Assembly: GCA_013361955.1 (NCBI GenBank)
Contig: JABFXA010000002.1
Location: 1-34,082 of the forward strand
Direction of reading: 5' to 3'
Length of the DNA stretch: 34,082 bases
Source of the DNA: Nocardioidaceae bacterium
Lineage (GTDB): Bacteria; Actinomycetota; Actinomycetes; Propionibacteriales; Nocardioidaceae
The translations under genes were made by a program, and so were the position numbers. The notes beneath the pieces were generated by a model. The model had not been told where the DNA came from, made no database searches, and was given only the letters and a program-made list of their open reading frames with translations. Of this stretch, positions 6,317 to 31,002 are shown piece after piece (the stretch's first letter is position 1; each line of letters opens with the position of its first letter).

Positions 6317-7678
6317 ATGCGGTGGTCGTCGCGCAGGAGCAACCGCACGGCCGGCTCGCACCCGGCGCGTGACGAGGTCACGGGGCTGGTGCCGTACGCC
6401 GCGTTCGTGCACCACGTGGCCGACGCGGTCAACGTGCGCACGCCCGGCTACGAGCCCGCGGTGCTCCTGGTCGACCTGGAGGGGGTCAGCGAGGCCGCCG
6501 ACGTCGACGGTCACCACGGTGTCGACGAGGTGATGCGGGTGATCGCGACGCGCGCGACCCGCGAGGTGAACAACCTCGGCATGGTCGCCCGGATGTCCGA
6601 CCACCAGATCGCCGTGCTCTTCCCGACGCTCTCCGCACCGGCCGTGGCGCTCGACCTGGCCTACCGGATGGTCACCGCGGTCACCACGCCGGTGGTGCTC
6701 GCCAACCAGCGCCGCGTGCAGCTGGCCACCAGCTGCGGCCTGGTCACCTGGGAGTCGATGGGCGCCCGGGCCACCGCCGACGACCTGCTCCGCGGCGCCG
6801 GCCTGGCCGTCCGCGAGGCGCGGCGGCAGGGCCGCAACAGCATCGAGGTGTGCACCGCCGACCTGATCGCGGTCGCCGACGAGACCCTGGCCATCGGCAA
6901 GGACCTGCGCCAGGCGCTCGACGAGAAGGGCCTGCGGGTCTGCTACCAGCCGATCGTCGACCTGGCGCACGGCAGCGTGACCGGCTTCGAGGCGCTGGTG
7001 CGCTGGAGCCACCCGGTGCACGGCGCGATCTCGCCGGCCCGGTTCGTGCCGGTCGCCGAGGAGTTCGGCCTGATCTCCGAGCTGGGCCGGATGGTGCTGT
7101 CCACCGCCGCCGCGCAGGTGGCGCAGTGGTCGGCGACGTTCCGGATCCCGCTCACCGCGCACGTCAACGTCTCCGGCGTCGACCTCGCGCACCACGACTT
7201 CGTCGCGATGGTCGAGGAGACCCTGCAGGCCAGCGGTCTGCCGGGGGAGCAGCTGGTCCTCGAGGTCACCGAGTCCGCCGTGGAGCCCGCGCTCGAGGTG
7301 GCCCGGACCCGGTTCGACGGGCTGCGCGACCTCGGCGTCCGGGTGGCGCTCGACGACTTCGGCACCGGCCGCTCGGCGCTGTCCTACCTGCAGACCCTGT
7401 CCGTCGACATCCTCAAGGTGGACCGGTCGTACCTCGACTCGATCGAGGGGGAGCGGAGCGACGACCTGCTGCGCGGCGTGATCGGCCTCGGCCAGGCGCT
7501 CGGCATGGAGGTGTACGGCGAGGGCATCGAGGACGAGGCGCAGCGGTACCGCCTGGAGCGCAACGGCTGCGCCGTCGGCCAGGGCTACCTGTTCGCGCGG
7601 CCGCTCCCGGCCGAGGACGCCGCCGCGTACCTGCGCACCCAGGCCAGCCCGGCGACCGTCACCACGCTGCCGGCCTGA
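6317..7678 (+). CDS. Cyclic-di-GMP phosphodiesterase with degenerate GGDEF and intact EAL domain
   Basis: The 453-residue protein has a GGDEF-fold domain (about 20-178) in which the GG(D/E)EF signature is replaced by MSDHQ (93-97), so cyclase activity is not expected. The EAL domain (about 190-445) keeps the usual metal and substrate ligands: E225 in FEAL, N284 in NVS, E316 in LEVTES, D346-D347 in DDFGTG, K367 in LKVDRSY, E402 in GEGIED and Q422 in GQGY. It should hydrolyse c-di-GMP, with the N-terminal domain perhaps binding GTP or acting as scaffold. ATG 6317 is chosen over an upstream in-frame ATG at 6197 because GAGGGG lies 7 nt before it. No membrane segment is present. Confidence 0.9.
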   Translation: MRWSSRRSNRTAGSHPARDEVTGLVPYAAFVHHVADAVNVRTPGYEPAVLLVDLEGVSEAADVDGHHGVDEVMRVIATRATREVNNLGMVARMSDHQIAVLFPTLSAPAVALDLAYRMVTAVTTPVVLANQRRVQLATSCGLVTWESMGARATADDLLRGAGLAVREARRQGRNSIEVCTADLIAVADETLAIGKDLRQALDEKGLRVCYQPIVDLAHGSVTGFEALVRWSHPVHGAISPARFVPVAEEFGLISELGRMVLSTAAAQVAQWSATFRIPLTAHVNVSGVDLAHHDFVAMVEETLQASGLPGEQLVLEVTESAVEPALEVARTRFDGLRDLGVRVALDDFGTGRSALSYLQTLSVDILKVDRSYLDSIEGERSDDLLRGVIGLGQALGMEVYGEGIEDEAQRYRLERNGCAVGQGYLFARPLPAEDAAAYLRTQASPATVTTLPA

Positions 7679-7744
7679 CCGAGGGCCCCACTTCACAAAG
7701 GGGCAAGGTCGGAGGACGCTGGTCCTGGGTGGGCGTGGAGGGAC

Positions 7745-7765
7745 GGCCGCCCAGGGGAGGCGGCC
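7745..7765 (+). promoter_or_regulatory. GC hairpin with ribosome-binding site in the loop, directly before a start codon
   Basis: The arms GGCCGCC (7745-7751) and GGCGGCC (7759-7765) are perfectly complementary. The 7-nt loop CAGGGGA contains the Shine-Dalgarno for ATG 7766, which follows the right arm immediately. If formed in the mRNA, the stem would block translation of the small protein and, through coupling, of frdA. Confidence 0.4.
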
Positions 7766-7993
7766 ATGACTGCGACCATCACCAGGTTCGAAGCGGCGAT
7801 CGCGCCCTGTGGGCGGGCCACGGACGGGACCCGGACCACCACCGAGGACCACCTCGGCCTGCTCACCGAGGAGGTCAGCTACGAGTGCGGCTGCCGGACC
7901 TCCCGGGAGGAGTTCCACGACGGCAGCGTGCACCGCACGGTGGTGAACCACCACGGAAGGGTCCTCGTCGACGAGGAGCTCCGAGGTGAGTGA
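7766..7993 (+). CDS. Small conserved-looking protein encoded upstream of and coupled to frdA
   Basis: The 75-residue product ([16 protein letters not shown] at the start) has three cysteines, two in YECGC, and a C-terminus rich in His, Val and Glu ([19 protein letters not shown]). It has no transmembrane segment and I do not recognise a family. An AGGGGAGG ribosome site precedes the ATG. Its last codons overlap the frdA GTG start by 8 nt, so it is the first gene of the frd operon and likely controls frdA translation or acts with the complex; that role is inference. Confidence 0.65.
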
Positions 7994-9737
7994 CGGCGGG
8001 TTCACCGCCACGCACGACGTACTCGTGATCGGGGGCGGGGGAGCGGGCCTGCGCGCCGCCATCGCCCTCGCCGACGCCGACCCGGTCCTCGACGTGGCCG
8101 TGATGTCGAAGGTGTACCCGATGCGCAGCCACACGGTCTCCGCCGAGGGCGGCGCGGCCGGCGTGATCGCCGAGGGCGACACGGTCGAGGAGCACATCTA
8201 CGACACCATCTCGGGCAGCGACTGGCTGGGGGACCAGGACGCCATCGAGATGTTCGTCGACGAGGCGCCGCGCGAGCTGCTGCGGCTCGAGCACTGGGGC
8301 TGCCCGTGGAGCCGGCAGCCCGACGGGCACGTCGCGGTCCGCGCGTTCGGCGGCATGAAGAAGATGCGCACCTGGTTCGCCGCCGACAAGACCGGGTTCC
8401 ACATGCTGCACGCGCTCTACCAGACGTCGCTGAAGCACGACGACGTGACGAGGTACGACGAGTGGTTCGTCACCCGGCTGCTCGTCGACGACGGCCGCGT
8501 GCACGGCGTGGTCGCGGTCGAGCTGATGACCGGCCGGATCCGGGCCGTCGCGGCCAAGGCCGTGGTGCTGGCCACCGGCGGCTGCGGCAAGGTGTTCCCG
8601 TTCACCACGAACGCCAACATCAACACCGGCGACGGGATGGCGCTGGCGTACCGGGCCGGGGCGCCGCTCAAGGACATGGAGTTCGTGCAGTACCACCCGA
8701 CCGGGCTGCCGTTCACCGGGATCCTGATCACCGAGGCCGCCCGCGCCGAGGGCGGGTGGCTGCTGAACAAGGACGGCTACCGCTACCTGCAGGACTACGA
8801 CCTCGGCACCCCGTCGCCGACGCCGGTGCTGCGCAGCATGGAGCTCGGCCCGCGCGACCGGCTGTCGCAGGCGTTCGTGCACGAGGTCGAGAAGGGCCGG
8901 ACCCTCGACTCGCCGTACGGCCCCATCGTGCACCTCGACCTGCGGCACCTCGGCGCGAAGGTGATCGACGCGAAGCTGCCGTTCGTGCGCGAGCTGTGCC
9001 AGAAGTACGAACGCATCGACCCGGTCACCGAGCTGGTCCCGGTGCGCCCGGTGGTGCACTACATGATGGGCGGGGTCCACACCGACCTCGACGGCGCGAC
9101 TCCGGTCGCCGGGCTGTACGCCGCGGGGGAGACCGCGTGCGTGAGCATCAACGGGGCGAACCGGCTCGGCTCCAACTCGCTGCCGGAGTGCCTGGTGTTC
9201 GGCGCGCGGGCCGGCCGGGCGGCCGCGGAGTACGCCGCGACCGCGGGTCCGGCACCCGCCGCGGTCGCCGCGCAGGCGGCCGACGAGGAACGACGACTCG
9301 AGCACGACCTGCTCGGCCGGGCGGGCACCGAACGCGTCTCGGCGATCCGCACCGAGATGCAGTCGACGATGGAGGAGAGCGCCGGGATCTACCGCACCGG
9401 ACCGTCCCTGGCCAAGGGCGCCGACACGCTCGCCGAGCTCCAGCAGCGGATGGCCCGCGTCGGGGTCGCGGACCGCAGCCGGTCGTTCAACACCGAGCTG
9501 GTGGCGGCGCTGGAGCTGGCGAACCTGCTCGACGTCGCCGAGTGCATCCTCAGGTCCGGGCTGCAGCGGCAGGAGTCCCGGGGCGCGCACCAGCGCACCG
9601 ACTTCCCGGCCCGCGACGACGAGACGTTCCTGACCCACCTGCTGGTCCACCGCGAGCCGGACGGGTCGTCGCGCGTCGAGCGGCTGCCGGTGACGATCAC
9701 GCGGTGGAAACCGGGCGAGCGGGTCTACGGGAGGTAG
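7986..9737 (+). CDS. frdA: Fumarate reductase/succinate dehydrogenase flavoprotein subunit
   Basis: This 583-residue protein aligns by eye with FrdA along its length. It has the FAD-binding GGGGAG (16-21) and SHTVSAEGG with H49 as the expected covalent FAD ligand. Other family blocks present are EFVQYHPTG, a GYRYLQDY block, [33 protein letters not shown] with the active-site Arg, and the C-terminal PGERVYGR. It catalyses succinate/fumarate interconversion at the cytoplasmic face of the membrane. GTG 7986 is fixed by similarity of [18 protein letters not shown] to family N-termini and by overlap with the upstream gene. FrdCD-type anchors downstream support the Frd rather than the Sdh designation; the direction in vivo is not known. 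Confidence 0.95.
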
Positions 9738-9739
9738 CG

Positions 9740-10492
9740 ATGCCGGACGAGGCAGGCACGATCGGGCTGCGGGTGGCGAGGTACCGGCCGGACACCGACT
9801 CCGAGCCCGGCTGGCAGGAGTACGACGTCCCGCTGCGGCGGGAGTGGACGGTCCTCGACGCGCTCAACCACGTGAAGAACGAGGTCGACCCGACGCTGTC
9901 GTTCCGCTGGTCGTGCCGGATGGGGATCTGTGGCAGCTGCGGGATGGACGTCGACGGCACGCCCCGCCTGACGTGCGGCACGTTCCTGGCCGACTTCGCG
10001 CCGGGCCCGATCCGGGTCGAGCCGCTGTCGAACTTCCCGGTGGTGCGCGACCTGGTCGTGGACATCGACGACTTCATCCAGAAGCTGCCCCGGGTGAAGC
10101 CGTGGATCATCCGCGACGAGGAGAAGTCGGTCGACGAGGGGGAGTACCTGCAGTCGCCGGAGGAGCTCGACGCCTACAAGCAGTTCAGCATGTGCATCAA
10201 CTGCATGCTCTGCTACGCGGCCTGCCCGGTCTACGGCCTCGACCCGGACTTCGTCGGTCCCGCGGCGATCGCGCTGGCCGAGCGCTACGACCTCGACTCC
10301 CGCGACCAGGGCGCCCGCGAGCGTCTCGACGTGCTGATCGAGCACGAGGGCGTGTGGGGCTGCACGTTCGTGGGCGAGTGCACCCGGGTCTGCCCCAAGC
10401 ACGTCGACCCGGCCGGTGCCATCCAGCGCTACAAGCTCAAGGCCGCCCGGGAGTCGGTGAAGGCGCTGCTGCTGCCGAGGGGCGCGCGGTGA
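9740..10492 (+). CDS. frdB: Fumarate reductase/succinate dehydrogenase iron-sulfur subunit
   Basis: The 250 residues contain all three cluster motifs. The [2Fe-2S] ligands are C59, C64, C67 and C79. The [4Fe-4S] ligands are C152, C155 and C158 with C218. The [3Fe-4S] ligands are C162, C208 and C214. Electrons pass between FrdA's FAD and the quinone site through these clusters. ATG 9740 is two nt past the frdA stop and has GGGAGG upstream. The stop overlaps the GTG of frdC (GTGA). Confidence 0.95.
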
Positions 10493-10878
10493 ACGGCGTA
10501 CGCACCTACCGGCGGCCGATCTCGACCTGGTGGTGGGTCGGGAAGCGGACCTACTTCGTGTTCGTGATGCGCGAGCTGAGCAGCATCTTCATCGCCTGGC
10601 TGGTGGTGTACCTGCTGCTGATGATCGCGGCGATCGGCCGCGGGGCGGACGCGTACGACGACTTCCTCCGCTTCGCCGCGAACCCGGTCGTCGTGGTGGT
10701 CGACCTGGTCGCGCTCGCGTTCGTCGTGCTGCACACGATCACCTGGTTCGGCCTCACCCCGAAGGCGATGGACGTCCGTGCCGCCGGACGCCCGGTGCCG
10801 GCCGCGGCGGTGATCGCCTCGCAGTACGTCGGTCTCGTCGTGGTCTCCGCGTTCGTGGTCTGGCTGGTGTCCCGATGA
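10489..10878 (+). CDS. frdC: Fumarate reductase membrane anchor subunit C
   Basis: This 129-residue integral membrane protein closely follows the E. coli FrdC layout: an N-terminal [12 protein letters not shown], a conserved acidic residue in [12 protein letters not shown] (E. coli FrdC has the equivalent Glu near residue 29), three transmembrane helices, and [16 protein letters not shown] matching the LHTKTWFELAPKA block of E. coli. It anchors FrdAB and helps form the quinone site. GTG 10489 overlaps the frdB stop by 4 nt, and its TGA overlaps the frdD ATG. Confidence 0.92.
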
Positions 10879-20384: not shown

Positions 20385-20768
20385 ATGGGAGAGCGCACAC
20401 TACGCGGCGCGCGCCTTGGCGGCCAGAGCTTCGAGGACGAGCGCGGCATCGAGTTCGCCGCGCGACAGAACATCGCCTACAAGTGCAAGCACGGGCACGA
20501 GTTCGAGATCCCGATGTCGGTCGAGGCCGAGGTGCCCGCGACGTGGGAGTGCCCGCGGTGCGGTGCCGAGGCGATCAGCCAGGACGGTCACGCGCCGGAG
20601 GAGAAGGTCGAGAAGCCGGTCCGCACGCACTGGGACATGCTGCTCGAGCGGCGCTCGATCAAGGAGCTCGAGGAGATCCTCACCGAGCGGCTGGAGCTGC
20701 TCCGCGGCGGCGAGATCGGCCCCGCGCACCTGCACCGGCCGACCAAGAAGAAGGCCCGGACCGCCTGA
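20385..20768 (+). CDS. rbpA: RNA polymerase-binding protein RbpA
   Basis: The 127-residue protein is typical RbpA. It has an N-terminal tail (MGERTLRGARLGGQSFEDERG), a zinc-binding core domain (AYKCKHGHEFEIPMS with C-x-H-x-H character, and WECPRCGAEA), then a basic linker and the sigma-interacting helix (HWDMLLERRSIKELEEILTERLELL in family order). It binds group 1/2 sigma factors and promoter DNA and stabilises the open complex. ATG 20385 has GGGAGGT upstream. A SigR-type promoter lies in the 5' region, implying induction by disulfide stress. Confidence 0.95.
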   Translation: MGERTLRGARLGGQSFEDERGIEFAARQNIAYKCKHGHEFEIPMSVEAEVPATWECPRCGAEAISQDGHAPEEKVEKPVRTHWDMLLERRSIKELEEILTERLELLRGGEIGPAHLHRPTKKKARTA

Positions 20769-20783: not shown

Positions 20784-21260
20784 TCAGTCCACGACCTCGC
20801 CCCGGACCACCGAGTCGGTGCCGGGGCGTCGTCGTGTCCGGGCGTCCTGCCGCGCGGCGTACCCGGGAGCGCCCGGGCCGGCCAGGAACTTGCGGGTCAA
20901 CCACGCGGCGAGGGCCTTGCGCGCGACCGGCCGCGTGAACGGCAGCACGAAGAAGAAGCCGACGATGTCGGTGATGAAGCCAGGCGCCAGCAGCAGCGTG
21001 CCGCCGACCAGCACCAGCACCCCGTCGGCCAGCTCGCGGGCCGGCATCCGGCGGTCGTCGATCGCCTCGCGGAGCGCCCGCCAGGCGCGGCCGCCCTCGC
21101 TCTTCATCAGCCACGATCCGAGGAAGCCGTCGGCGATCAGCAGCGCCACGGTCCACCAGGCGCCGATCACCTGGCCGACCTGGATCAGCAGGTAGATCTC
21201 CAGGACCGGCACCACGATGAACAGCAGCGCCAGCACCCACCAGGGGATCCGTCGCCTCAT
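20784..21260 (-). CDS. FxsA family membrane protein
   Basis: The 158-residue protein has the FxsA layout: a first membrane segment with LFIVVPVLEIYLLIQVGQVIG, then a helix with TVALLIADGFLGSWLMKSEGGRAW, and a third region PARELADGVLVLVGGTLLLAPGFITDIVGFFFVLP in family order, followed by a cytoplasmic basic tail. FxsA in E. coli is linked to T7 phage exclusion by F factor; the general function is unknown. ATG 21260 is 15 nt after the stop of ppm's neighbour gene order (ppm ends at 21276), so it is probably co-transcribed with lnt and ppm. It is convergent with rbpA. Confidence 0.9.
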   Translation of the reverse strand: MRRRIPWWVLALLFIVVPVLEIYLLIQVGQVIGAWWTVALLIADGFLGSWLMKSEGGRAWRALREAIDDRRMPARELADGVLVLVGGTLLLAPGFITDIVGFFFVLPFTRPVARKALAAWLTRKFLAGPGAPGYAARQDARTRRRPGTDSVVRGEVVD

Positions 21261-21275: not shown

Positions 21276-22037
21276 CTACGTGATCCGTCGTCTCGAGAAT
21301 ACGTCGCGCACCTGGCGGACCCGTTCGCGCAGCCCCCAGGTAGTGATCCGGAGCAGCGACTCGACCGCCACGTCGCGGGACATCTTCGAGTCCCCGCGCA
21401 CCCGCTCGACGAACTCGATCGGCACCTCGCGCACGGTGAGCCCGGCCCCGACGGTGCGGTAGGCCAGGTCGGTCTGGAACACGTAGCCGGCCGACTGCAC
21501 CGACTCCAGGTCGATGGTCTCCAGGGTGCTGCGGCGGAACAGCCGGTAGCCGGCGGTCACGTCGCGCAGCGGGATGCCGAGCAGCAGCCGGGCGTAGAGG
21601 TTGCCGCCCACGGAGAGCACCTTGCGCGACAGCGGCCAGTTCACCACCGAGCCGCCCGGCACCCAGCGGGACCCGATCACCAGGTCGGCCTCCTCCAGCG
21701 CGTCCAGCAGGGCCGGCAGCTGCTCGGGCTGGTGGGAGCCGTCGGCGTCCATCTCGCCGACCACGTCGTAGCCGCGCTCCAGTGCCACCCGGAAGCCGTG
21801 CAGGTACGCCGCGCCCAGGCCGGCCTTCTCGGTGCGGTGCACGACGCTCACCTGCGGGTCGCCGGCGGCCAGCTTGTCGGCCAGCTCGCCGGTGCCGTCC
21901 GGGGACCCGTCGTCGACGACCAGCACGTCGACGTCCGGCACGGCGCTCCGGACCCGGCCGACGATCCACTCGAGGTTGTCGCGCTCGTTGTAGGTCGGGA
22001 TCACGACCAGCACCCGGCCGAGCGGCTCACGGGGCAT
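21276..22037 (-). CDS. ppm: Polyprenol monophosphomannose synthase
   Basis: The 253-residue GT2 glycosyltransferase shows VVIPTYNERDNLEWIV, VLVVDDGSPDGTGELA, the metal-binding GEMDADGSHQPEQLP (DxD-type), GSRWVPGG and LRDVTAGYRLFRRSTLE in the dolichyl-phosphate-mannose synthase order. It transfers mannose from GDP-mannose to polyprenyl phosphate for protein mannosylation and lipoglycan synthesis. ATG 22037 lies 5 nt after the lnt stop, with GGAG upstream. In mycobacteria the Lnt and Ppm parts form one polypeptide (Ppm1); here they are separate coupled genes. Confidence 0.92.
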   Translation of the reverse strand: MPREPLGRVLVVIPTYNERDNLEWIVGRVRSAVPDVDVLVVDDGSPDGTGELADKLAAGDPQVSVVHRTEKAGLGAAYLHGFRVALERGYDVVGEMDADGSHQPEQLPALLDALEEADLVIGSRWVPGGSVVNWPLSRKVLSVGGNLYARLLLGIPLRDVTAGYRLFRRSTLETIDLESVQSAGYVFQTDLAYRTVGAGLTVREVPIEFVERVRGDSKMSRDVAVESLLRITTWGLRERVRQVRDVFSRRRIT

Positions 22038-22042
22038 GGACG

Positions 22043-23590
22043 TCACTCCTGGGTGCGGGTGCGGGGTCGCCGACGATAGCCGATCAGCAGGCCCACCAGG
22101 ACCGAGACGAGCGAAACCGTCGACACGGCCAGCTCCGGCCACGCGCCCATCGTCACCGCCGGCGTGGTGCGGGTGGTCAGCGGCAGCGTCCGCTCCAGCA
22201 CCGCCTGCACCCGCTCCGGCGCGCGGGCCACGACGCTGCCGTCGGGAGCGACGATGCCGGAGATCCCGTTGGTGGAGGCCACCACGACCCAGCGATCCGT
22301 CTCGATCGCCCGCAGCCGGGACATCGCGAACTGCTGCTCGACCTGGCCGGTGCCGGTGTAGGTCGCGTTGTTGGTCGGGACCACGATGAGGTCGGCGCCG
22401 CCCCGCACCACGTCGCGCACCAGCCCGTCGTACGCGACCTCGAAGCACATCAGCACGCCGGCCCTGGCCGGCCCGACCTCGAGCACCCCCGGCCGAGTGC
22501 CGCGGATCATGTCGGAGGGGATCTGCGCAAGGGCCGGGATGCGCGGCGCGAGCAGGCCCCGGAGCGGGATGTACTCGCCGAACGGGACCGGGTGGATCTT
22601 GTCGTACCACGCCTGCGGCTCGCCCTGCGTGGACCAGACGATCGCCCGGTTGTGCCAGCCTTCGTTGGCCCGGTCGCCGACCACCGCGCCCATCAGCAAG
22701 GGCGCGCCCACGGACTGCGCGGCGGCACCGATCGCGGCCCGCGCGCTGGGATCGGTGTACGGGTCGATGTCGGAGGAGTTCTCCGGCCACACCACCAGGT
22801 CGGGCCGCGGGGTCTGGCGAGCGGCGACCCGCCGGCCCAGCGCCAGGGTCGCCTCGACGTGGTTGTCCAGCACGGCCCGGCGCTCCGCGAACGCCTCGAG
22901 CCCGGTGCCGGGCACGTTGCCCTGCACGGCGGCGACCCGCGCGTGCGGCCGCTCCTGGCCCGGTGTCGCCTGCGGGAACGCGAGGAACGCCGGCGCGCAC
23001 ACCAGCCCGACGGCGACGGCCACGCCGACCACCGAGCGCACCGGCCGGTGCGCGACCCCGACGATGCCCCACGCCAGCGTCACGCCGAGCAGCGCGACCA
23101 GGAAGGTGGTGCCGGGCGCTCCGACGTACGCGAAGGCGTTGGCGACCGGGGTGTCCTCGGCGGCGAAGGCGAGCCGGCCCCACGGGAAGCCGCCGAACGG
23201 GAACAGCGAACGCCCCGCCTCGACGGCGACCCACGAGCACGCCGCCCACAGCGGCCAACCGGGCAGCCGGCGCACCACCGTGGTGGCCAGGCCGGCGAAC
23301 CCGTAGAAGAGGCCCTCCGCAACCGCCAGCGGCAGCCAGGCGTAGGCGCCGATCACCTGCACCCAGGGCAGCAGCACCAGCATGAATGCGGTGCCGTAGA
23401 CCGCACCCAGCCAGAAGCCGGAGCGCGCGGTCCGGTCGAGGCAGACCAGGGTCAGCGCGCACGCGGCGAGCGGGACCAGCACCCAGACGTGGGTGGGCTC
23501 GAAGCCGAGCGCCGTGGCGACCCCGGCCAGGGCGGCGACCACCGTGCGGGCCAGCCCGCCGGACGACGGCCGCCAGCTCCTCGTACGCAC
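22043..23590 (-). CDS. lnt: Apolipoprotein N-acyltransferase
   Basis: This 515-residue protein has about six N-terminal transmembrane helices, a nitrilase-fold extracytoplasmic domain (about 215-475) and a final helix. The catalytic triad reads E270 (VVWPENSS), K331 (WYDKIHPVPFGEYIP) and C382 (VLMCFEVAYD), at nearly the same positions as E267, K335 and C387 in E. coli Lnt. It N-acylates the Cys of mature lipoproteins such as the one at 14647-15516. GTG 23590 follows TAGATT by 6 nt, giving a leaderless mRNA. It heads an operon with ppm and probably fxsA. Confidence 0.93.
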   Translation of the reverse strand: MRTRSWRPSSGGLARTVVAALAGVATALGFEPTHVWVLVPLAACALTLVCLDRTARSGFWLGAVYGTAFMLVLLPWVQVIGAYAWLPLAVAEGLFYGFAGLATTVVRRLPGWPLWAACSWVAVEAGRSLFPFGGFPWGRLAFAAEDTPVANAFAYVGAPGTTFLVALLGVTLAWGIVGVAHRPVRSVVGVAVAVGLVCAPAFLAFPQATPGQERPHARVAAVQGNVPGTGLEAFAERRAVLDNHVEATLALGRRVAARQTPRPDLVVWPENSSDIDPYTDPSARAAIGAAAQSVGAPLLMGAVVGDRANEGWHNRAIVWSTQGEPQAWYDKIHPVPFGEYIPLRGLLAPRIPALAQIPSDMIRGTRPGVLEVGPARAGVLMCFEVAYDGLVRDVVRGGADLIVVPTNNATYTGTGQVEQQFAMSRLRAIETDRWVVVASTNGISGIVAPDGSVVARAPERVQAVLERTLPLTTRTTPAVTMGAWPELAVSTVSLVSVLVGLLIGYRRRPRTRTQE

Positions 23591-23993: not shown

Positions 23994-24401
23994 TCAGTCC
24001 GTGGACACCGCTCGAGCCGGCACCACGACCACGCCGGTGGCGGACGTCGCGAGCAGCGGTTCGTCGAGCATCCTGGCAGAGGAGTCCGACAGGTCGGGGC
24101 GGCCGCGACCGACCACCACCGCCCGGAACTCGAGGGTGCGCGACCGGCTCCCGACGCGGACCACCTCGGCGGTGATCTCCAGGACGTCGCCGGCGCGCAC
24201 CGGGCTGCGGAACTGCACGTCGGAGTACGACGCGAACAGGCCCTCGTCGCCGTCGGTGCGGATGCACACCTCGGTGGCCACGTCGCCGAACAGGCCCAGC
24301 GAGTAGGCGCCGTCCACGAGGTTGCCGGCGTAGTGCGCGTGCGAGTACGGCACGTAGCGACGGTGCGTCACCGTCAGGCCCTGCATCTGCTCGGGGGTCA
24401 C
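23994..24401 (-). CDS. kal: Hotdog-fold 3-aminobutyryl-CoA ammonia-lyase
   Basis: The 135-residue protein has a hotdog-fold pattern and the block HRRYVPYSHAHYAGNLVDGA, then LFGDVATEVCIRTDGDEGLFASYSDVQF in order, which I recognise from 3-aminobutyryl-CoA ammonia-lyase of lysine fermenters. The reaction removes ammonia from L-3-aminobutyryl-CoA to give crotonyl-CoA. The second half (SPVRAGDVLEITAEVVRVGSRSRTLEF) is typical of MaoC/thioesterase-like hotdogs, so a generic hotdog enzyme is the alternative. The neighbours kamE and kamD make the specific call much more likely. GTG 24401 overlaps the kamE stop by 4 nt. Confidence 0.82.
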   Translation of the reverse strand: MTPEQMQGLTVTHRRYVPYSHAHYAGNLVDGAYSLGLFGDVATEVCIRTDGDEGLFASYSDVQFRSPVRAGDVLEITAEVVRVGSRSRTLEFRAVVVGRGRPDLSDSSARMLDEPLLATSATGVVVVPARAVSTD

Positions 24402-25147
24402 CGGGCCACCGCCTCGTGCCTGCTCGTCACCAGTCGGTAGGTGAGGTACGACGCGACCTCGCCGGGCGTCGTACCCCGGGAGAAGACCCGGTCCACGCCG
24501 AGGTCCGCGGCCATCGTCTCGTCGAAGCGCGGACCGCCGACCACCATCAGCGGCCGCTTGTCGCTCGGGTAGGACTCCCGGAACGCCGCGGACATCTCCT
24601 TGGTGTTCAGGATGTGCGCGTCGCGCTGGGTCACCACCTGCGAGACCAGCACCGCGTCCGCCTTCTCCTCGCGGGCCTTGGCGACGAGCTGCGGCACCGA
24701 CACCTGCGCGCCGAGGTTCACCACCCGGATCTCCCGGTAGTACTCGAGGCCCTTCTCCCCCGCGAACCCCTTGATGTTCAGGATCGCGTCGATGCCGACG
24801 GTGTGCGCGTCGGTCCCGATGCAGCCGCCCACCACGGTGAGCCGGCGCCGCATCCCCTTGCGGATCGCCAGGTTGACCTCCTTCGGCGCGAGCAGCGGGT
24901 ACTCCCGCTCGACCACCGTGACCTGCGAGGTGTCCACGAGGTGCTGCACGCGCCCGTACACCACGAAGAAGGTGAAGTCGGGGCCCATCGGCTTGGCGTG
25001 CACGACGAGCGCGGGCTCCATGCCCATCTTGTTCGCCAGCTGCGCCGCGGCGCCCTCGGCGACCTTGCTGTGCGGCATCGGCAGCGTGAAGGAGATCTGC
25101 ACCATGCCGTCTCCGGTGGTGTCGCCGTACGGGCGCAGGATGCTCAT
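24398..25147 (-). CDS. kamE: Lysine 5,6-aminomutase beta subunit (cobalamin-binding)
   Basis: The 249-residue subunit begins with the OAM dimerisation region (MVQISFTLPMPHSKVAEGAA). It has the base-off B12 motif D113-A-H115-T-V-G118, with H115 the expected cobalt ligand. K126 in NIKGFAG lies 11 residues after it, the same spacing as H133 and K144 in the Clostridium sticklandii enzyme, where K144 forms the PLP Schiff base. LVSQVVTQRDAHILN and MVVGGPRFDE complete the Rossmann-like fold. With KamD it moves the terminal amino group of beta-lysine or D-lysine to C5. It starts 10 nt after the kamD stop. Confidence 0.95.
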   Translation of the reverse strand: MSILRPYGDTTGDGMVQISFTLPMPHSKVAEGAAAQLANKMGMEPALVVHAKPMGPDFTFFVVYGRVQHLVDTSQVTVVEREYPLLAPKEVNLAIRKGMRRRLTVVGGCIGTDAHTVGIDAILNIKGFAGEKGLEYYREIRVVNLGAQVSVPQLVAKAREEKADAVLVSQVVTQRDAHILNTKEMSAAFRESYPSDKRPLMVVGGPRFDETMAADLGVDRVFSRGTTPGEVASYLTYRLVTSRHEAVAR

Positions 25148-25157
25148 CGGGTCCCTC

Positions 25158-26750
25158 TCATCGCTCGCCGTCCAGGATCTCGGTGGCCGGGTTGAAGTAG
25201 CCGGCGGCCTTGCGGGCCACGCCGTCCAGACCCTTGCCGCCGTCGGCGGGGCGCTTCATCAGCCCGAAGGTGCCGTCGGCGATCGCGTCGAGGAGGCCGG
25301 TGCGGGACTCGTGGGCGAGGATCTGCTCGAGCAGGTCGATCGCCTCGGCGAGCACCTGGTTGGCGCGCTGCACGATGTAGCCGTCGGGGCGTGGCACGAA
25401 GTCCTCGTGCAGGTTGCCGGCGGCGTTCATCACGTAGCGGACGTTCTGCAGCGCCAGGTCGCGGTCGGACAGCCACGGCGTCACGACGGCCTCGGTCATC
25501 ATCCCGACCAGCAGGATGCCTTGTCCGGTGAGCGTGCCGACCAGGTTGAAGAACGCGTCGAGCATGTAGCCGCGGAACACGTCGCCGGTCATGTGCCGGG
25601 TCGGAGGCATCCACTTCAGCGGCGCCTTCGGGAAGAGCTCGCGGGCGAGCAGCGCGTGCGCCAGCTCCATCCGGAAGCTGTCGGGGATGTCCGGGTTGAT
25701 CTCGAAGGCGTGGCCGAGGCCGAGCTGCCAGTCCCCGAGCCCGGCCTCCTTGGCGAAGTACTCGTTGAGCAGCTGGCTGACGGTGACCGTGTGCGCCGCC
25801 TCGACGGCGTCGGCGGTGGTGAGGTAGTTGTCCTCGCCGGTGTTGATGACGATCCCGGCACGGGCGTGCACCTGGCGGCTGAAGCGCTGGTCGACGAACG
25901 TGCGGATCGGGTTGATGTCGCGGAACAGGATCCCGTACATCGAGTCGTTCAGCATCATGTCGAGCCGCTCGAGGCCGGCCAGCGCGGCGATCTCCGGCAT
26001 GCACAGGCCGGACGCGTAGTTGGTGAGCCGCACGTAGCGGCCGAGCTCCTTGCTGGACTCGTCGAGGGCGGCGCGCATGAGGCGGAAGTTCTCCTGCGTC
26101 GCGTAGGTGCCGGCGAACCCCTCGCGGGTGGCGCCCTCGGGGACGTAGTCGAGCAGCGACTGCCCGGTGGAGCGGATCACCGCGATGATGTCGGCGCCCT
26201 CGCGCGCGGCCTGCTGCGCCTGCGGCATGTCCTCGTAGATGTCGCCGGTCGCGACGATCAGGTAGATCCAGGGCTGGTGGTCGGGGTCGCCGTACCGCTT
26301 CACGAGCCGCTCGCGCTCGCGCCGCCGCGCGTCGACCCGCTTGATGCCGGCACCCACCTGCCGGCGCGCGGCCGCCCGCGCCCGGACCAGGTCGCGGCCC
26401 TCGGGGACCCGGAACCGCACCGAGCCGGCCGACGCCTTCTGGGCCAGCACCGACACGTCGTCGGCCTCGCCGCGCACCAGGGCGTCCCAGACCGGGAGCG
26501 CGATGCCGTGCTCGAGGCCCACGTCGCCGCGGACCGCGTCGAGGAGCCGGTTCACCCACGGGATGCCGTCGGCGTCGGCGCCCTGCAGCCCGGCCAACCG
26601 CAGCGTGGCCCGCTCCACGGACACCGTGGTGTGCCGCTGGGCGAGGTCGACGATCGGCTTGCCGGCCTTGCGCGCCAGGCTGCGCGCCCGGCGTACGGTC
26701 GCCGGGTCCAGGTCGAGCTTCTTGGTCGTACGGCGGCTGGTCGTGGTCAC
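25158..26750 (-). CDS. kamD: Lysine 5,6-aminomutase alpha subunit
   Basis: The 530-residue TIM-barrel subunit starts VVTTTSRRTTKKLDLDPATVRRARSLA-like (basic tail, then helices) and contains IYLIVATGDIYEDMPQAQQAAREGADIIAVIRSTGQSLLDYVPEG, NYASGLCMPEIAALAGLERLDMMLNDSMYG and GIVINTGEDNYLTTADAVEAAHTVT in family order. These contribute substrate, PLP and adenosylcobalamin contacts. It forms the AdoCbl- and PLP-dependent aminomutase with KamE, a cytoplasmic enzyme. Length matches the family. GTG 26750 overlaps the upstream amidohydrolase stop by 4 nt, fixing the start. No KamB/KamC reactivating-factor genes are in the window. Confidence 0.95.
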   Translation of the reverse strand: MTTTSRRTTKKLDLDPATVRRARSLARKAGKPIVDLAQRHTTVSVERATLRLAGLQGADADGIPWVNRLLDAVRGDVGLEHGIALPVWDALVRGEADDVSVLAQKASAGSVRFRVPEGRDLVRARAAARRQVGAGIKRVDARRRERERLVKRYGDPDHQPWIYLIVATGDIYEDMPQAQQAAREGADIIAVIRSTGQSLLDYVPEGATREGFAGTYATQENFRLMRAALDESSKELGRYVRLTNYASGLCMPEIAALAGLERLDMMLNDSMYGILFRDINPIRTFVDQRFSRQVHARAGIVINTGEDNYLTTADAVEAAHTVTVSQLLNEYFAKEAGLGDWQLGLGHAFEINPDIPDSFRMELAHALLARELFPKAPLKWMPPTRHMTGDVFRGYMLDAFFNLVGTLTGQGILLVGMMTEAVVTPWLSDRDLALQNVRYVMNAAGNLHEDFVPRPDGYIVQRANQVLAEAIDLLEQILAHESRTGLLDAIADGTFGLMKRPADGGKGLDGVARKAAGYFNPATEILDGER

Positions 26751-28348
26751 GACAGCGCTCCTTCTGTCTCGAAGGCGATGTCCCCGCGGACGACGGTCAT
26801 CACGCAGGACGGCAGGTCGGCATCGGGGTGCAGGTCGGGCAGGTGCGGGACGCCGGCCCGCGGGTCGGTCGACCACGCCGCGATCCGGGCGTCGGGGGTC
26901 TGCACGACCAGGTCGCCGGGCACGTCCCAGACCGCGACGCTCGCCGGGGCGCCGGGCGCGATCACCCCGCCCTCGTTGCGGCGGGCTGCCCGCCAGCCGC
27001 CGCGGGTGTGCGCGTTGAACGCGGCGCGCACGGTGACCCGCTCGGACTCGGTCTGGTGCCACGCGGCCGCGCGCACGGCCGCCCACGGGCCGAACGGGGT
27101 GACCGGGGTGTCGGAGCCGAACGCCAGCGCGGCGCCGGCTTTGTTCAGGGACGCGAAGGCGTTCATCGGCAGGGCCCGGTCCGCACCGAGGCGACGGGCG
27201 TAGAGGCCCTGGTCGCCGCCCCAGTAGGCGTCGAACATCGGCTGCACGCTGGCGGTCACCCCGAGCGACCCGAGCACCGCCATCTCCTCCTGGGATGCCA
27301 TCTCGACGTGCTCCAGGCGGTGCCGGGCCTGCACCAGCGCGGGCACGCCGACCTCGTCAGCCGCGGCCCGGAACCCGGCGACCACCTCGGTGACGGCGCG
27401 GTCGCCGATCACGTGGAAGCCGCCCTGGATGCCGGCCCGCGTGCAGGCCACCACGTGCCGGGCGACCTGCTCGCGGTCGAGGTAGAGGTGGCCGCTGGTC
27501 TCCGCGTCCGCGTACGGCGCGTGCAGCGCCGACGTCCGGGAGCCGATCGAGCCGTCGGCGCACAGGTCGCCCGCGGCGCCGGCGCAGCCCAGGGCGAGCG
27601 CGGTCTCGATGCCGTCGAGCTCGCCCCAGTAGCGGACCACCTCGGGCAGCGGCGCCCGCGCGGTCAGGGCGGCCGAGACAGCCAGGTCCTCCGGAGGGCA
27701 GATGTGCGGGGCGCCGAGCTCGTGCACCATGCCGATCCCCTGCCGCGCGGCCCGCTGCAGCGCCCGCAGGATCGCGTCCTCGCGGTCGGTGGCCGGCGTC
27801 AGCTTGAACAACCCCTCGCGCGCGGCGTGGTGGGCGTCGCGGGCGACGAACCCGGAGACGTCGTACCCCTCGGCGTGCACGACGTCGGGGCAGGCGTCGA
27901 GGAACGCCGAGGACACCACGGCCGAGTGCACGTCGACGCGGGACAGCATCACCGCACGGCCACCGCTGGCGCGGTCGACCTCCTCGCGGGTGAACGCCCG
28001 ACGCTCGGGCCAGCCGGTCTCGTCCCAGCCGAAGCCGAGCACTACCGCCGAGGGGTCGCTGTTCGCGTGCGCCGCGATCGCGTCGAGGGCCTCGCCCAGG
28101 GACGCCACCGCCCCGAGGTCGACCGAGGCCGCGGCGAAGCCGGTCTGCGCCAGGTGCGCGTGCGCGTCGACGAACGCGGGCGTCACCAGCCGGCCCTCGA
28201 GCTCGACGACCCGGTCGGCGCCCTCCTCGAAGTGCACGGAGGCGTCGTCGTCGCCGGTCCAGACGACCTCGTCGCCGTCGAGGCACAGCGCGGTTGCATG
28301 CGGGTCGGCGGGCGTGTGGACGTAGCCACCTCTCAACAGGATGCGCAC
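26747..28348 (-). CDS. YtcJ-like amidohydrolase inside the lysine operon
   Basis: The 533-residue enzyme is a metal-dependent amidohydrolase of the YtcJ type: VTPAFVDAHAHLAQ (HxH), LCADGSIGSRTSALHAPYAD, GGFHVIGDRAV (His), RHRLEHVEMAS (His) and ALAFGSDTPVTPFGPWAAV (Asp) are in family order. It has no signal peptide. Members hydrolyse amide or similar C-N bonds; the substrate is unknown. It is coupled to kamD by a GTGA overlap and starts 10 nt after the kdd stop, so it is a fixed part of this operon. It has no place in the known lysine fermentation pathway. GTG 28348 has GAGG upstream. Confidence 0.88.
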   Translation of the reverse strand: MRILLRGGYVHTPADPHATALCLDGDEVVWTGDDDASVHFEEGADRVVELEGRLVTPAFVDAHAHLAQTGFAAASVDLGAVASLGEALDAIAAHANSDPSAVVLGFGWDETGWPERRAFTREEVDRASGGRAVMLSRVDVHSAVVSSAFLDACPDVVHAEGYDVSGFVARDAHHAAREGLFKLTPATDREDAILRALQRAARQGIGMVHELGAPHICPPEDLAVSAALTARAPLPEVVRYWGELDGIETALALGCAGAAGDLCADGSIGSRTSALHAPYADAETSGHLYLDREQVARHVVACTRAGIQGGFHVIGDRAVTEVVAGFRAAADEVGVPALVQARHRLEHVEMASQEEMAVLGSLGVTASVQPMFDAYWGGDQGLYARRLGADRALPMNAFASLNKAGAALAFGSDTPVTPFGPWAAVRAAAWHQTESERVTVRAAFNAHTRGGWRAARRNEGGVIAPGAPASVAVWDVPGDLVVQTPDARIAAWSTDPRAGVPHLPDLHPDADLPSCVMTVVRGDIAFETEGALS

Positions 28349-28358
28349 GCGCTCATCC

Positions 28359-29393
28359 TCACAGCCGGCGCTCGAAGAGGGCGCGCACCCCCGCGTGCTC
28401 ACGCAGCAGCGAGATCGCGAAGTCCGCGTGGCCGGGCACGTAGCCGTTGCCGACCAGCATCGTCACGTCGGCGGCCAGGCCCTCGGCGCCCAGGGCCGCG
28501 GCGCTGAACGACGTCGCCATGGAGAAGAACACCACGGTCCCCCGGTCGGCGGTGGCCAGGATCGCGCCGCCCTCGCAGCCGGGGACGTCGACGCAGACGA
28601 CGGTCACGTCGGCGGGGCCGCCGGCGGCGGTCACCGCGTCGGACAGCGCGACCGGGTCGCGGGCATCGGCCACCGCCACCACGTCGGCGATCCCGGCGTC
28701 GGTGAGCAGGTCGGCCTCGCCCTGGTGGGGGACGACGCCGATCGTGCGCCGGGCCCCGGCGGCCTTGGCCGCGGCCAGCGACAGCGAGCCGGACTTGCCG
28801 GCGCCGCCGACCACCGCGACCACCGGTTCGTCGTAGCCGGCCACCACGCGGGCGGTCAGTGCCGGCGCGCCGCACACGTCCATCACCGACAGCGACAGCC
28901 CGGCGGGCAGGTCGTCGGGGATCACCGCGGCGATGGAGCGGCCGAACAGCACGGCGTACCCGTCGCAGGGCACCTGTTCGGACCGGCCGTCCCAGCGCTC
29001 CAGGCCGTCCTCGACCACCAGCGGCGTCAGCGTGAGGGAGACCAGCGTGGTCACCCGGTCGCCCACCGACAGCCCGAGCGGCGACTCCGGGCCGACCTCC
29101 TCGACGGTGCCGACGAGCATCCCGCCGGAGCCGGTCTCGGGGTTCTGCATCTTGCCGCGCGCGGCGACGATGTCGAGCACCGCGGCGCGGATCCGGTCGC
29201 CGTCGCCGTCGTGGGTGCGCTCCAGCTGCCGGAAGGACGCGGCGTCGAGGTTCAGCCGCTCCACGCGGATCCGCACCTCGTCGGGCCACAGGTCCTTGCC
29301 GGTGTCCAGCCGCCGCGCGGCCTGCGGCAGCACCCCGGCCGGCTCGAGCACCCGGTGCAGCCCTACCGGGCTGGACGGCTGACGCTGACCCAC
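28359..29393 (-). CDS. kdd: L-erythro-3,5-diaminohexanoate dehydrogenase
   Basis: The 344-residue protein matches Kdd: an N-terminal catalytic part with PQAARRLDTGKDLWPDEVRIRVERLNLDAASFRQL and NPETGSGGMLVGTVEEVG, then a dinucleotide-binding domain with VVAVVGGAGKSGSLSLAAAK (GGAGKSG at 196-202). It oxidatively deaminates 3,5-diaminohexanoate to 5-amino-3-oxohexanoate with NAD(P)+. The start is GTG 29393, which has a perfect GGAGG 7 nt upstream; longer in-frame extensions have none. First gene of the leftward operon, divergent from kamA. Confidence 0.92.
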   Translation of the reverse strand: MGQRQPSSPVGLHRVLEPAGVLPQAARRLDTGKDLWPDEVRIRVERLNLDAASFRQLERTHDGDGDRIRAAVLDIVAARGKMQNPETGSGGMLVGTVEEVGPESPLGLSVGDRVTTLVSLTLTPLVVEDGLERWDGRSEQVPCDGYAVLFGRSIAAVIPDDLPAGLSLSVMDVCGAPALTARVVAGYDEPVVAVVGGAGKSGSLSLAAAKAAGARRTIGVVPHQGEADLLTDAGIADVVAVADARDPVALSDAVTAAGGPADVTVVCVDVPGCEGGAILATADRGTVVFFSMATSFSAAALGAEGLAADVTMLVGNGYVPGHADFAISLLREHAGVRALFERRL

Positions 29394-29544: not shown

Positions 29545-31002
29545 ATGAGCATCGAGACCTCGATCGGCCTCGAGACCGGACAGCCCTACCCCTACCGCCG
29601 GGTGGAGCTGGTCGAGCCCGACTGGACCCGGTTCCCGGGCTGGAAGCACGTCACCGCCGAGGACTGGGCCTCCGTCCAGTGGCAGCGCGCGCACTGCATC
29701 AAGAACGTCCGCCAGCTGCGCAGCCTGTGGGGCGACCTGGTCGACGAGTCGTTCTACGAGGACCTCGAGCGCGACCAGCGCGAGCGGGCCACCATGTCGA
29801 TGCTGGTGCCGCCGCAGATGATGAACACGATGGCGCCGCGCGAGCTGCCGACCGGCCCCGGCTCGCTGACCGAGGCGATGTACGCCGACCCGGTGCGCCG
29901 GTACATGCTGCCGGTCTTCTCCGACCGCCGGCAGGACTGGCCGTCGCACCCGCACGCCACCCGCGACTCGCTGCACGAGCACGACATGTGGGTGGCCGAG
30001 GGCCTCACCCACCGCTACCCCACCAAGGTGCTCGCCGAGCTGCTGCCGACCTGCCCGCAGTACTGCGGCCACTGCACGCGGATGGACCTGGTCGGCAACT
30101 CGACACCGCAGATCGACAAGCTGAAGTTCCTCGGCAAGCCGGTGGACCGGCACGCCGAGATGCTGGCCTACCTGAGCCGCACCCCGTCGGTGCGCGACGT
30201 GGTGGTCTCCGGCGGCGACGTGGCGAACATGCCGTGGCCGCGGCTGGAGGAGTTCCTGACCCGGCTGCTGGAGATCGAGAACATCCGCGACATCCGACTG
30301 GCCACCAAGGCGCTGATGGGTCTCCCCCAGCACTGGCTGCAGGACGACGTCCGCGCGGGCGTCGAGCGGGTCGCCACCATCGCCCGCGAGCGCGGTGTCT
30401 CGCTGGCCATGCACACGCACGTGAACCACGCCGCGTCGGTCACCCCGATGGTGGCGAAGGCGACCCGGGCGATGCTCGACGCCGGTCTCCGCGACGTCCG
30501 CAACCAGGGCGTGCTGCTCGACGGTGTGAACGCCGACCCGCACGCGCTGCTCGACCTCTGCTTCGCGCTGCTCGATGGCGCGCAGATCATGCCGTACTAC
30601 TTCTACATGTGCGACATGATCCCCTTCTCGGAGCACTGGCGGGTCTCGGTCGCCGACGCGCAGCGGCTGCAGCACCACATCATGGGCTACCTGCCCGGCT
30701 TCGCGACCCCGCGGATCGTCTGCGACGTACCGTTCGTCGGCAAGCGCTGGGTGCACCAGCTCGCGGAGTACGACCGGGAGCTCGGCATCTCGTACTGGAC
30801 GAAGAACTACCGCACGTCCATCGAGGCGCAGGACCCGGAGGCCCTGAAGCGCACCTACGCCTACTACGACCCGATCCACACGCTGCCCGAGGCCGGGCAG
30901 GCGTGGTGGCGGCAGCACGCCGGCGACACCTCCCTCGAGGAGGCGGAGCGGGCCGCGAAGGCGTCGCGTGAGGCCGCGGAGGCGCAGAAGTCGCTGGTGT
31001 GA
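29545..31002 (+). CDS. kamA: Radical SAM lysine 2,3-aminomutase (KamA family), divergent
   Basis: The 485-residue protein has GLTHRYPTKVLAELLPTCPQYCGHCTR, with C170, C174 and C177 as the CxxxCxxC [4Fe-4S]/SAM ligands. VVVSGGD, MHTHVNHAASVT, NQGVLLDGVN and MPYYFYMCDM match KamA blocks. D357 and D394 correspond to substrate-binding Asp residues D293 and D330 of the clostridial enzyme. The PLP lysine is K400 in DVPFVGK, where clostridial KamA has DAPGGGGK: the glycine loop is lost and one residue is missing. The C-terminal Zn cysteines of the clostridial enzyme are absent. Context predicts L-lysine to L-beta-lysine, but a different substrate is possible. ATG 29545 has GGAG upstream. Confidence 0.85.
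   Translation: MSIETSIGLETGQPYPYRRVELVEPDWTRFPGWKHVTAEDWASVQWQRAHCIKNVRQLRSLWGDLVDESFYEDLERDQRERATMSMLVPPQMMNTMAPRELPTGPGSLTEAMYADPVRRYMLPVFSDRRQDWPSHPHATRDSLHEHDMWVAEGLTHRYPTKVLAELLPTCPQYCGHCTRMDLVGNSTPQIDKLKFLGKPVDRHAEMLAYLSRTPSVRDVVVSGGDVANMPWPRLEEFLTRLLEIENIRDIRLATKALMGLPQHWLQDDVRAGVERVATIARERGVSLAMHTHVNHAASVTPMVAKATRAMLDAGLRDVRNQGVLLDGVNADPHALLDLCFALLDGAQIMPYYFYMCDMIPFSEHWRVSVADAQRLQHHIMGYLPGFATPRIVCDVPFVGKRWVHQLAEYDRELGISYWTKNYRTSIEAQDPEALKRTYAYYDPIHTLPEAGQAWWRQHAGDTSLEEAERAAKASREAAEAQKSLV

Follow-up and report, generated by a model that had tools for sequence, protein, structure and literature searches.

Within a 34,082-nt stretch of a Nocardioidaceae bacterium genome (contig JABFXA010000002.1, positions 1 to 34,082, hereafter the window), a lysine-degradation (kam) operon holds between its kdd and kamD genes a YtcJ-like amidohydrolase gene, here called amh, which by its sequence, its neighbourhood and its active site, including a lysine-to-aspartate exchange at the metal centre, is an ortholog of the epsilon-lysine acylases (ELAs) of Streptomyces. 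The gene itself is confirmed: it occupies 26747-28348 of the minus strand, runs from a GTG start to a TGA stop and encodes a protein of 533 residues and 55.9 kDa, in which inspection by eye finds no obvious signal peptide. We consider it probable that the amh product is itself an epsilon-lysine acylase and the entry enzyme of the operon, freeing L-lysine from N-epsilon-acyl-lysine for the route that begins with KamA. We read amh as a lysine-releasing enzyme that would supply its neighbours because it is the counterpart of the laboratory-tested Streptomyces ELA, and its feeding role is suggested by the structure of the operon. The first-pass annotation had described an amidohydrolase of unknown role, a description that can no longer be upheld since its ortholog, an ELA, has been characterised biochemically.

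Relationship to the Streptomyces epsilon-lysine acylases

In the published passages describing them, ELAs (EC 3.5.1.17) are YtcJ-like M38 enzymes of about 55-57 kDa without a carboxylated lysine (PMC10699109, PMC11511702), an absence said there to distinguish them (PMC10699109). For SgELA the assay passage gives 11.1 U/mg on N-epsilon-acetyl-lysine and zero activity on N-alpha-acetyl-lysine and on the N-alpha-acyl amino acids tested (PMC10699109). We matched the published SgELA cloning primers P3 (forward) and P4 (reverse) (PMC10699109) against 392 genomes, the genus being taken as Streptomyces, and found P4 in 8 of them; in 6 of those 8, P3 matches precisely the opposite end of the gene that carries P4. 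The primer-matched gene is 1647 nt long and encodes 548 residues of 56.8-56.9 kDa (56.9 in the review table), with H, H, H, H, H and D at residues 76, 78, 177, 330, 365 and 431, as in the paper. One of the two P4 loci without P3 (L144) still fits the published residues; the other (L150) failed the residue check and was left out of later comparison, its automatically assigned start being wrong. Both primers also occur at one of 80 named loci, that of Streptomyces sp. PTY087I2 (L180), and the pair is not found in the locus titled S. griseus NRRL WC-3645. At all eight P4-bearing loci amh adjoins ppm, and at six of them rbpA also lies within the fetched stretch.

Over 529 residues the window protein shares 52% identity with an SgELA-type protein (L151), compared with 34% for its next match in its own genome, where it is the single close copy. 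The 54 kam-linked proteins have 105 positions that are conserved at 95% or more. All seven ELA-type proteins carry the conserved residue at 98 of these, compared with 55 for the own-genome paralog and 53 for the Pyrococcus protein 3ICJ, and at all 105 it is also the majority residue of 23 orthologs without kam neighbours. As Y240 and G242 are among the seven positions that differ in ELA, small differences between the two enzymes are possible.

The protein matches Pfam Amidohydro_3 (PF07969, E 3.7e-74), and its solved relatives by sequence, the uncharacterised Pyrococcus hydrolases 3ICJ and 3IGH, are also the nearest solved folds to its AlphaFold2 model (pLDDT 94.0, from 48 sequences), with Z scores of 41.4 and 41.2 but sequence identities of just 23-26%. 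Its metal ligands are an HxH pair (H63, H65), H312, H347 and D413, which align with SgELA H76, H78, H330, H365 and D431; the full metal-binding motifs claimed by the first-pass annotation are thus present, save that the metal-bridging lysine of 3ICJ is replaced by Asp261. This residue is aspartate in 77 of 78 orthologs and glutamate in one (54/54 kam-linked proteins and 22/23 others carry aspartate), corresponds to Asp279 in ELA, and is lysine in the own-genome paralog and in 3ICJ, which sets amh apart as a member of a distinct Asp-type subfamily. In the amidohydrolase superfamily the bridging lysine is the carboxylated residue, and published passages on ELAs and bile salt hydrolases agree. 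The metal-dependent bile salt hydrolases share PF07969 and amide hydrolysis with amh, and the passages at hand describe in them a carboxylated Lys373, secretion and an extra C-terminal domain (PMC13081902). The four known enzymes SgELA, SmELA, ScELA and SamELA, by contrast, resemble amh as YtcJ-like M38 proteins of 55-57 kDa with His/His/His/His/Asp ligands in the published excerpts (PMC10699109, PMC11511702), and the Streptomyces ELAs further share with it the missing carboxylated lysine, 52% identity and the lnt-ppm-rbpA neighbourhood; they differ in being about 75% or more identical to one another, and the Streptomyces loci examined have no adjoining kam genes, whereas the window gene sits between kdd and kamD. 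Separately, one amh ortholog (L076, genome G058, 7950-9617, plus strand) has E, S and A in place of D261, H312 and D413 and is, from these substitutions, probably decaying or refunctioned.

Operon layout and conservation of position

On the minus strand the operon runs kdd (3,5-diaminohexanoate dehydrogenase, 28359..29393), amh, kamD (lysine 5,6-aminomutase alpha, 25158..26750), kamE (its beta subunit, 24398..25147) and kal (3-aminobutyryl-CoA ammonia lyase, 23994..24401). Like those of known kam operons (kamA, kamDE, kdd, kce, kal, as in Intestinimonas), its Kdd, KamD, KamE and Kal pass the curated NCBIfam models, with 256.9 bits against a cut-off of 200 (NF052381), 699 against 600 (NF052384), 341.7 against 280 (NF052385) and 187.7 against 160 (NF052388), respectively. 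It differs from them in its added acylase, in the divergent, opposite-strand placement of kamA and in kce, none of which was seen inside the cluster, three PF05853 genes lying on other contigs of the same genome. The kamA-like gene (29545..31002, plus strand) points away from the operon start at kdd, for which we chose the GTG at 29393 behind GGAGG; it encodes a radical SAM protein with a CxxxCxxC motif and no Pfam match that falls below every curated cut-off (154 bits against 525 for lysine 2,3-aminomutase) and appears to represent a divergent KamA branch. Between the kdd stop at 28359 and the amh start at 28348 lie 10 nt, the amh TGA and kamD GTG overlap by 4 nt (GTGA, 26747..26750), and ribosome-binding sites precede the amh (GAGGA) and kamD (GAAGGAG) starts. 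The first-pass annotation had the coordinates, distance and overlap right, and the spacing supports the co-transcription geometry behind its proposal of co-translation with the pathway. Downstream on the same strand follow lnt (apolipoprotein N-acyltransferase, 22043..23590), whose proximity to amh is conserved even at loci that lack kamDE, a ppm-like family 2 glycosyltransferase gene (21276..22040) and fxsA (20784..21260), all three faced by rbpA (20385..20768, plus strand).

The position of amh, whose conservation had been proposed as a check, is kept across the order: among 58 nearest relatives (amh at E <=1e-60, kamD at E <=1e-40), amh occurs in 41 and kamD in 40; 37 genomes have both genes, 4 have only amh, 3 have only kamD and 14 have neither (Fisher p 1.6e-7, uncorrected for kinship). 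With start codons picked automatically, the kdd-amh distance is 60 nt or less in 52 of 56 measured loci and the amh-kamD distance in 45 of 56, the 11 exceptions to the latter comprising two artefacts of open frame or start choice (L040, L108) and nine gaps of 192-3800 nt. This tight spacing is not due to chance. Genes that interrupt the kdd/amh/kamD row in five loci (L066, L098, L099, L101, L102) encode an ABC transporter, a phosphoketolase-like protein and others that by eye appear unrelated to lysine, and where such unrelated DNA has entered, amh usually still adjoins kdd. In L040 (genome G023, about 7300-10600) amh and kamD form one open frame with a linker of some 36 residues and no stop, in a stretch that holds Ns; this may be a natural fusion or an assembly error.

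Across the class (246 genomes, amh at E <=1e-50), amh occurs in 122 genomes, kamD in 55 and both in 30, and two further genomes (G078, G135) with a cut or diverged amh beside kamD bring the last figure to 32 of 55. As kamD is absent from 92 of the 122 amh-bearing genomes, where amh often lies by lnt and ppm, and about two fifths of the kamD-bearing genomes have no detected amh, the earlier phrase "locked inside the lysine operon" overstates the linkage. We fetched 20 of the 92 amh-only loci and 20 of the 25 kamD-only genomes. In 18 of the former lnt and/or ppm adjoin amh (neither does at L089, and L095 lies at a contig edge), as they do in 4/4 such loci of the order; in 16 of 18 fetched kamD loci with no amh in view, kdd joins kamD directly, the remaining two being one that ends at kamD (G062) and one without a visible kdd (G293). 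Among the 80 named loci, kam genes including kamD stand beside amh in 14, including Rhodococcus rhodnii, Pedococcus, Actinokineospora, Micromonospora, Lentzea and Paractinoplanes, and in four (two Amycolatopsis, Saccharomonospora and Thermocrispum) amh is still accompanied by kamA, kamD being missing. At L063, L207, L211, L214 and L223 a kamA-like gene lies beside amh and lnt without kamDE, an arrangement that hints at a use of KamA and the acylase independent of KamDE. A locus in a record titled as a Bifidobacterium breve metagenome-assembled genome (L229) reads helY-exo-amh-lnt-ppm, its amh being 45-48% identical; the record is possibly misbinned or misnamed.

Proposed role and competing explanations

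In the mechanism that we propose, the amh product would be a cytosolic metal hydrolase with a TIM-barrel fold, cleaving the side-chain-nitrogen amide of N-epsilon-acyl-L-lysine (acetyl at least), supplied for instance by turnover of acylated proteins, and yielding free L-lysine and a carboxylate. The L-lysine would pass to KamA, which would form beta-lysine, and on through KamDE and Kdd, after which a cleavage enzyme of the BKACE type, for which three candidate genes lie elsewhere in the genome, and then Kal would lead to CoA esters. A precedent comes from Intestinimonas, where fructoselysine is converted to free lysine that enters the same kam route, according to the part of the report consulted (PMC4697335).

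Several observations weigh against this assignment. That the route starts from free L-lysine is itself conjectural, because the KamA-like protein scores so far under the curated cut-offs. Counted by genome, amh is present in 30/55 kamD-bearing and 92/191 kamD-less members of the class (Fisher p 0.45), and by genus the association is weak (23/35 against 28/69, p 0.02). In loci with both genes, amh is the more variable, at 43-79% identity to the window against 74-91% for kamD, and 52% identity to ELA would be compatible with a different acyl group or amine. Finally, SgELA H177, called oxyanion-forming and by its authors' account partly conserved in the passage concerned (PMC10699109), aligns in L151 with amh Asp163 in a gapped variable loop. 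His141 of amh is invariant among orthologs and may be a better oxyanion candidate than the H177 equivalent, and from the alignment the published His177 assignment may be a slip.

That amh is simply a neighbour, a general-salvage ELA of an old lnt-ppm-fxsA-rbpA neighbourhood flanked by kam genes that share its transcript and have no metabolic link to it, would account for the amh-only loci beside lnt and ppm, for the direct kdd-kamD junctions where amh is missing, and for a tree of 81 amh orthologs that requires the kam label to switch at least 8 times, supported branches forcing 4 of the switches (the outgroup, a paralog, was picked by a short motif, and only this root-independent count is used). 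We nevertheless regard it as unlikely: the coupling of a lysine-releasing enzyme to a lysine-degrading operon would be an improbable accident, amh loss within the order falls mostly in kamD-less lineages, and amh tends to stay by kdd even where foreign genes have intruded. A drift of the kam-linked branch to some other acyl-amine, with only fold and metal site in common with ELA, is less likely again; only about half of the residues are common to amh and ELA, and PF07969 substrates are diverse, the metal-dependent bile salt hydrolases being one published example (PMC13081902, seen in excerpt), but ELA matches 98 of the 105 conserved positions, and in the tree kam-linked members are intermixed with the others. 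The first-pass annotation had looked for the substrate among N-acylated or cyclised intermediates of the route, such as N-epsilon-acetyl-beta-lysine or beta-lysine lactam. An N-acylated lysine-type compound survives from this guess, and N-epsilon-acetyl-beta-lysine is a possible side substrate, as it would present the same epsilon-acyl amide that ELA cleaves; the lactam or cyclised intermediate has gained no support, our analysis having found no evidence for lactams. As the main substrate, a route intermediate is very improbable, given that AblB, the known maker of N-epsilon-acetyl-beta-lysine, has no match in the organism's own genome (90% complete) and that amh is kept in many KamDE-less genomes and in Streptomyces loci without an adjoining KamA.

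History of the linkage and its meaning

In the tree of orthologs ELA falls inside the amh family. A separate rpoB tree covers 51 of the 58 relatives (a usable core match was lacking in six, and G039 was dropped as no frame passed the motif check); here three kamD-bearing tips, scattered over the tree, lack amh, and most absences fall in kamD-less lineages, each of which also has a genome keeping amh. From this pattern amh appears useful without kamDE yet more readily lost there, and a paired test of amh-kamD co-loss on the same tree gave p of about 1, with too few independent pairs. The notion that amh is purely a gene of the lnt neighbourhood into which kam was later inserted proved partly correct: amh often adjoins lnt at loci with no kam genes, yet kdd-amh-kamD recurs. 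Since it recurs in many families, the combined block is evidently old, and the distribution of sequences indicates that the amh-kam linkage is old and not obligatory. We give even chances to a wider proposal, in which the kam operon of actinomycetes serves as a module for the breakdown of acylated lysine and ELA is an original member from the class ancestor, left alone in Streptomyces and others after two-sided loss of kam.

Our literature search, with subscription ELA papers outside its scope, returned no paper linking a lysine acylase to an aminomutase or to lysine catabolism, none joining acetyl-L-lysine, lysine degradation and an amidohydrolase, and none combining the names ppm, amidohydrolase and lnt. 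ELA, treated as a biocatalyst in the portions consulted of the papers on it (PMC10699109, PMC11511702), would thereby gain a natural context, the entry of modified lysine into lysine catabolism. As far as these searches show, a kam operon with a built-in lysine deacylase is undescribed, and an amidohydrolase listed as unknown would now have a named, assayable reaction. Acetyl-lysine is released when acetylated proteins turn over, so that whether soil actinomycetes live on it becomes a testable question.

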